Both the position numbers and the translations under genes were made by a program. A stretch of 63,529 nucleotides of DNA from contig JACQOF010000030.1 in assembly GCA_016202645.1 (NCBI GenBank), forward strand, positions 1 through 63,529, read 5' to 3'. This DNA is from a bacterium (lineage in GTDB: Bacteria > Lindowbacteria > 2-12-FULL-62-27). Below are positions 53,047 through 53,358 of this stretch, one piece after another (the stretch's first letter is position 1; the number at the start of each line of letters is the position of its first letter). The notes under the pieces were generated by a model. The model made no database searches and was not told the DNA's origin. It saw only the letters and a list, made by a program, of their open reading frames with translations.

Positions 53047-53358
53047 TGCCGGGGGAGGGAATTGAACCCTCACGGCCCTTGCGGGCCACAGGATTTTCGT
53101 GCCGCGACGGCTTTCGCCGCCCGTGAGGTTCGCGGTCTGGACTGTCCCTTCGCCGTGGCCTTTCGGCTGTAGGCGCCGCCCGTCCAGTCTCTACACCTTC
53201 CCTCCTTCGCTGCAGCTCCGGAGGACTTGGCTCGGGATTGCCACCGCCATGACGCGTTGAGGGTTCCCCGACTTTGAGCGGTTCTGCATCTTCGGTTTCC
53301 CGAAGGGCACTCAATTTTCAATCAAGTCCTGAGCGTCTGCCAGTTCCGCCACCCCGGC
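53047..53358 (-). tRNA. tRNA-Leu(TAA), interrupted by a group I intron
   Basis: Exon 1 is 53324-53358, exon 2 is 53047-53097 (minus strand). Joined, they give an 86-nt class II tRNA: acceptor GCCGGGG/CCCCGGC, discriminator A, anticodon stem CAGGA/TCCTG enclosing CTTAAAA with anticodon TAA, a long variable arm TGTGGCCCGCAAGGGCCGT, and T-arm GAGGGTTCAATTCCCTC. The intron splits the anticodon after its first base, the same site as in cyanobacterial and plastid trnL. CCA is not encoded. Confidence 0.9.
53098..53323 (-). ncRNA. Group I intron (IC3-like) in tRNA-Leu(UAA)
   Basis: A 226-nt intron without an ORF. P1: exon ACTT pairs with the intron internal guide GAGT, leaving the required U.G pair at the 5' splice site. 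The last intron base is G. Conserved blocks match trnL introns: GGCAATCCCGAGCCAAG (P4/Q region; plastid trnL has GGCAATCCTGAGCCAA), GAAGGTGTAGAGACTGGACG (R region) and ACAGTCCAGACC (S region), with CTGGAC/GTCCAG able to form P7, the guanosine-binding helix. It should be self-splicing. Confidence 0.88.

Follow-up and report, generated by a model that had tools for sequence, protein, structure and literature searches.

A group I intron in a tRNA-Leu(UAA) gene outside cyanobacteria and its probable descent from a spare tRNA carried by integrative elements

The tRNA-Leu(UAA) gene on the minus strand of the window (the whole stretch of DNA analyzed here, 63,529 nucleotides) is split by a group I intron, and we consider it probable that this gene descends from a spare tRNA-Leu(UAA) borne by an integrative element, which would have replaced a host gene broken at the sequence CTTAAAA. 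Bacterial tRNA group I introns are usually regarded as neutral passengers or ancient relics. For trnL(UAA) introns outside cyanobacteria, the sequences described below lean slightly towards another reading, namely that such introns are kept by selection because they mask the attachment site of a replacement tRNA while splicing keeps this tRNA usable. A self-splicing intron would then offer protection from the integrase of the element that carries it and perhaps also from competing elements.

With introns allowed, ARAGORN reports a tRNA-Leu(taa) with a 226-nt intron after gene position 35 and, once the exons are joined, a clean tRNA-Leu(UAA) of 86 nt. This agrees with the initial annotation, made from the letters of the window, which had given no strand and had described exon junctions restoring an intact tRNA around an ORF-less intron of the same length. 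In an E-value threshold search, RF00028 covers the locus end to end (model positions 1-253, 39.5 bits, E=1.5e-8), a covariance-model match that falls below the gathering score of 50, and this is the one RF00028 match in the whole 2.9-Mb bin containing the window (G000). The locus was called neither by ARAGORN without introns nor by Rfam at gathering thresholds. Gene and intron comprise the following features:

53358-53047, minus strand: tRNA-Leu(UAA) gene with group I intron (ARAGORN with introns and RF00028 end-to-end match)
53358-53324, minus strand: 5' exon, 35 nt, last letters ..GGACTT, through U34 (ARAGORN and sequence)
53323-53098, minus strand: group I intron, 226 nt, ORF-less, after U34, with terminal G at 53098 (ARAGORN, RF00028 and covariation)
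53097-53047, minus strand: 3' exon, AAAATCCTG...CCGGCA (ARAGORN and sequence)
53312-53309, minus strand: internal guide GAGU, forming P1 with exon ACUU (53327-53324), U.G at the splice site (structure written from sequence)
53176-53281, minus strand: P3 (53281-53276 with 53181-53176), enclosing P4-P6 (100% paired; 5/6 pairs compensated)
53140-53189, minus strand: P7 (53189-53185 with 53144-53140), the guanosine-binding helix, enclosing P3' and P8 (100% paired, 38 introns)
53102-53135, minus strand: P9 domain (written structure and alignment counts)

P1, P2, P3, P4, P6, P7, P8 and P9 as well as the terminal G are all found in the window intron, and its P7 block GAAGGUGUAGAGACU is the same as in Azoarcus. 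In an alignment of 38 trnL introns, pairing is present in 95.5% of cells across the helices, and 26 pairs are altered on both sides, while shuffles give 12.3 and slid controls 9-11. Across this alignment, no variation is seen in P6 or in most of P4 and P7, and the U.G pair of P1 at the splice site, which had been noticed at the outset together with the terminal G, occurs in 38/38 introns. Sequence and covariation confirm that tRNA-Leu(UAA) is split here by a genuine group I intron with a covarying ribozyme. Its transcript would have to lose this IC3-like group I ribozyme before reading UUA codons, and we infer that splicing takes place in the cell.

Relatives of the intron were collected from 85,000 named genomes with the exon-plus-core motif ACTT..GAGCCAAG..AAGGTGTAGAGACT, yielding at least 118 stretches, and 89 among the matches listed are strict trnL(UAA) genes with the same insertion point. 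Hosts of these 89, again among the matches listed, are mainly Alphaproteobacteria, and further hosts are found in Beta-/Gammaproteobacteria, Bacteroidota, Acidobacteriota, Planctomycetota, Bdellovibrionota and Eremiobacterota. The motif used for the named loci (GTGTAGAGACT) was derived from the window intron, and the sample is therefore biased to similar introns; introns obtained independently of the motif, L212, L213 and L223 via the integrase and the copy of the sister genus (G002) via RF00028, lie in the same clade. Identity of the window intron amounts to 82.5% with the G002 intron and to up to 79% with proteobacterial introns. In the tree, the window and G002 introns are paired (support 99/94) and nested in an 86-row non-cyanobacterial clade (97/91), a clade found on elements. 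An intron of this core type, without a surrounding tRNA, was also seen in a Methanosarcinaceae archaeon record (L034, JAIPUR010000020.1), apparently inside an ORF of this archaeal bin.

Many of the intron-bearing trnL genes are preceded by a second, intronless trnL(UAA) 5' half, which stops right after CTTAAAA and lies ~0.1 kb, 0.2 kb or 1.35-1.56 kb away. With each locus's own exon as probe, an orphan 5' half was found upstream on the same strand in 16/89 trnL-intron loci among the matches listed, and control placements for the 89 loci listed gave a single case, downstream on the opposite strand, with 0 for the opposite strand upstream and 0 for the same strand downstream. Similarity ends directly past CTTAAAA in nearly all orphan-half loci. 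Among the matches listed, some three in four named trnL-intron loci have no orphan half within 2.5 kb, and none was found near non-Leu tRNA introns (Asn, Lys, Arg) among the loci checked. The 1.5-kb gap is occupied by a tyrosine recombinase of 400-450 aa (type A) with weak Pfam scores and no NCBIfam match, whose aligned family retains R..H-x-x-R..Y-type blocks; other elements harbor a P4-like integrase (Arm-DNA-binding and Phage_integrase domains) at their far end. Matching trnL 3' halves are found on the same contigs as the 5' halves. Six complete elements with attL and attR on one contig span 12, 22, 31, 35, 49 and 58 kb, and their halves, rejoined by script, restore a perfect intronless tRNA-Leu(UAA) in 6/6 cases. 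Element cargo, read by eye, includes T4SS/conjugation genes, a relaxase and resistance to arsenic or metals. The intron is inserted at CTT|AAAA, within the 7-nt core CTTAAAA in the anticodon loop.

The tyrosine integrase of such an element recombines at CTTAAAA in the anticodon loop of the intronless host trnL(UAA), and insertion destroys this gene, of which an orphan 5' half remains as attL and a 3' half as attR. The element supplies its own complete trnL(UAA) with the intron inside the core. We propose that splicing would give back a normal tRNA and keep the spare usable, while the intron most likely prevents the spare from serving the integrase as another attachment site. Type-A elements have attL and spare in one orientation, with the integrase gene between them; if the core of the spare were uninterrupted, the integrase would be free to excise its own gene or to shed the spare. 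In G000, the element would have decayed or the spare moved, leaving the split gene as the only trnL(UAA) found.

The reverse search, with the type-A integrase as sole query, covered 289 Alphaproteobacteria and 398 genomes from a single order; of 41 new loci examined, 33 were assigned to a target tRNA. Sixteen of the elements found in this way are located at trnL(UAA). Fifteen carry an intron-split spare downstream, the contig of the sixteenth ends within the first bases of the spare, and an intronless spare was found in 0/16, counts that are not independent, since several elements are close kin and many of the 16 come from one order. At class I tRNAs (tRNA-Met, -Phe and -Arg), 12 elements leave the tRNA complete at the junction. 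Five elements at tRNA-Leu(CAA) (L241, L242, L247, L249, L250) show an orphan 5' half together with an intronless spare Leu(CAA), so that a spare can also be kept by means other than the intron. Compared with the target, the anticodon loop is changed in 4/5 of these spares and the stem in 1/5, which suggests that identity to attB has to be avoided in a spare and would point to masking here, too.

An alternative to a selected function takes the intron as a passenger: elements would have captured an intron-bearing tRNA once, with no effect on integration. Related elements indeed carry related introns, and the Leu(CAA) elements need none. However, intron-split trnL(UAA) spares are accompanied by integrases of two types, type A as well as the P4-like Arm-DNA-binding one, element-borne introns are scattered over the tree (16 changes), and the Leu(CAA) spares have a loop or stem unlike that of the target, as if a match to attB were to be avoided. 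We regard the passenger reading as possible, with a minority of the weight, and selection for masking of the attachment site as the reading to which these observations incline.

The phylum sample of G000 consists of three genomes of one family (G000, G001 and G002), while the Cyanobacteriota sample, reached via a named cyanobacterial locus, was drawn from a much larger one; the contig thus lies outside the cyanobacteria, and the non-cyanobacterial context proposed for it from the outset holds. An intact intronless trnL(UAA) was not found in the G000 bin (82% complete) or the G002 bin (88% complete), and the split gene is therefore probably the working copy. G001 harbors an intact intronless trnL(UAA) close to trnC and trnT. 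In G002, the order is trmL-like gene, trnL 5' half, intron-bearing trnL, HNH-type ORF, NYN-domain ORF, degenerate trnL 3' end, trnC and trnT, with the trnL pieces at the following positions:

11764-11732 in G002: trnL 5' half
11499-11179 in G002: intron-bearing trnL
9118-9093 in G002: degenerate trnL 3' end

By this layout, the native trnL of G002 is broken and an intron-bearing copy sits inside the break, the remnant of an element. A second tyrosine integrase gene lies beside trnT in G002 (L172 7781-8884, G002:C169), followed by Peptidase_M78 and XRE-type genes, and probably belongs to a separate element. Further group I introns were seen in this phylum: G002 has one in tRNA-Asn(GUU) after U35 (L009 1501-1743, G002:C151), with similar tRNA-Asn introns in at least 4 other genomes of different families (L004-L007), and the 23S rRNA gene of G001 contains one, placed by eye near E. 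coli position 2593 (L008 1501-1810, G001:C11).

In G000, trnT-trnC has no adjoining trnL, and the intron-bearing trnL is found elsewhere, between an FmdB-like and a YfiH/laccase-like ORF (names by eye). Within the window, no orphan trnL halves flank this copy; no attL or attR was found next to it, no ORF beside it was recognized by eye as an integrase, and the type-A profile has no match in the window. With no integrase, attL or attR beside the window copy, its origin from an element rests on the clade, the sister genus and the displaced position. The window exons are close to G001 trnL and look native for the phylum, and entry of the intron into a resident gene would also fit. Under this alternative, a related tRNA intron would have been the source from which the intron entered the phylum's own trnL directly, through homing or reverse splicing, to be passed on vertically to G000 and G002, the link to elements elsewhere being a separate matter. 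The sister position of the window and G002 introns (99/94) agrees with such a history as do the exons, but direct entry does not explain why the G002 copy lies inside a disrupted intronless trnL adjoining an orphan 5' half; moreover, the gene neighborhood in G000 differs from trnT-trnC, and the intron contains no endonuclease ORF. Direct entry appears unlikely to us, and descent from an element-borne spare the probable course.

Of the two routes considered in the initial annotation, lateral transfer gains support and a concrete vehicle in the integrative elements, whereas a wider ancient distribution fits poorly. In a domain-wide sample of 386 genomes, the strict motif was present in G000, G002 and 2 others only, and the trnL intron of this type is sporadic, not general. 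Vertical inheritance of a trnL(UAA) intron widespread in early bacteria and mostly lost since then would account for its presence in many phyla, for the insertion site common with cyanobacteria and for the joining of both groups in one tree. Against it stand the mere 2 genomes besides G000 and G002 among 386, the presence and absence of the intron within one family, with an intronless trnL in 1/3 phylum genomes, and its occurrence on ICEs, plasmids and a huge phage. We consider this history very improbable, even if the cyanobacterial and non-cyanobacterial clades may share a deep common origin.

Eleven cyanobacterial trnL introns were gathered separately with RF00028. Their identity to the window intron is 54-58%, no higher than that of tRNA-Asn introns, and a branch of length 1.24 (99/95) sets them apart in the tree. 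The description as a cyanobacterial/plastid-type intron thus stands for the site in tRNA-Leu(UAA) and fails for the lineage: compared with cyanobacterial and proteobacterial introns, the intron core falls in the non-cyanobacterial clade, and membership in the cyanobacterial trnL intron lineage was rejected, as the window intron groups outside it. Transfer from a cyanobacterium or plastid, which would match the tRNA, the insertion point and the general core motifs, is hardly credible in view of 54-58% identity to cyanobacterial introns versus 77-82% to non-cyanobacterial ones and of the 99/95 branch between the groups.

Copies of the gene also occur on plasmids and in a phage. The window gene matched ~1,290 plasmid records. 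An enterobacterial copy, a complete intron-split trnL(UAA), is present in 1,280 PLSDB plasmids (1,273 at >=99%) and in 635/5,426 complete E. coli genomes, and no annotated feature lies beneath it among the matches listed for plasmids and E. coli genomes. In the two plasmids whose aac(3)-II neighborhood was inspected, pCTX-M3 (NC_004464.2; L260 3995-4293) and the E. coli plasmid CP042600.1 (L261 3995-4292), the copy adjoins an AAA ATPase (tmrB-like) gene and aac(3)-II. The 5' exon of this copy is identical to its counterpart in P4-type ICEs, and its 3' exon agrees over the first 30 nt with that of one such ICE (L073). The copy beside aac(3)-II suggests that this module includes part of an alphaproteobacterial ICE. 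A Bradyrhizobium conjugative plasmid likewise carries the complete split gene, and so does the 735-kb uncultured phage LR756501.1 (L263 3001-3291), whose tRNA-Leu(UAA) has an intron of this kind with a length of 205 nt.

If the proposed mechanism is true, one large intron class has a job: the element breaks an essential tRNA gene and substitutes an integrase-proof copy. This would explain why the intron lies exactly at the anticodon loop, why it is sporadic in many phyla and why it occurs on clinical plasmids. Intron-split trnL genes escape standard tRNA annotation, and many genomes may have no other trnL(UAA).

Intron and tRNA are of known kinds, and a search of the open-licence literature returned no paper that makes such a connection between group I introns, tRNA genes and integrases; an intron-split spare tRNA on elements hitting the same tRNA thus appears undescribed there. 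The cyanobacterial and plastid trnL(UAA) intron shares the gene, the insertion after U34, the IC3-like core and the lack of an ORF, but differs in sequence and forms a separate clade, and the window intron has a non-cyanobacterial host and element-borne relatives. Proteobacterial tRNA group I introns, among them those of Azoarcus tRNA-Ile(CAU), tRNA-Arg(CCU) and tRNA-Ile2 of Acidovorax/Burkholderia, are likewise small IC3-type introns in a tRNA anticodon loop; they occupy other tRNAs, and the portions of these reports available to us mention no link to integrative elements (PMC4033280, PMC8450103). Group I introns in the T-loop of tmRNA are similar in being small and in residing in an RNA gene targeted by islands, yet the available portion of that report describes no intron-split spare on an element (PMC11915505). 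Closest in integration anatomy are tRNA-targeting ICEs/IMEs and genomic islands of the Islander type, which have a tyrosine integrase, an att core in a tRNA gene, and attL and attR. Unlike in Islander-type islands, however, the tRNA at the junction is left unrestored in the elements described here, and a complete spare is carried instead, split by an intron at the core.
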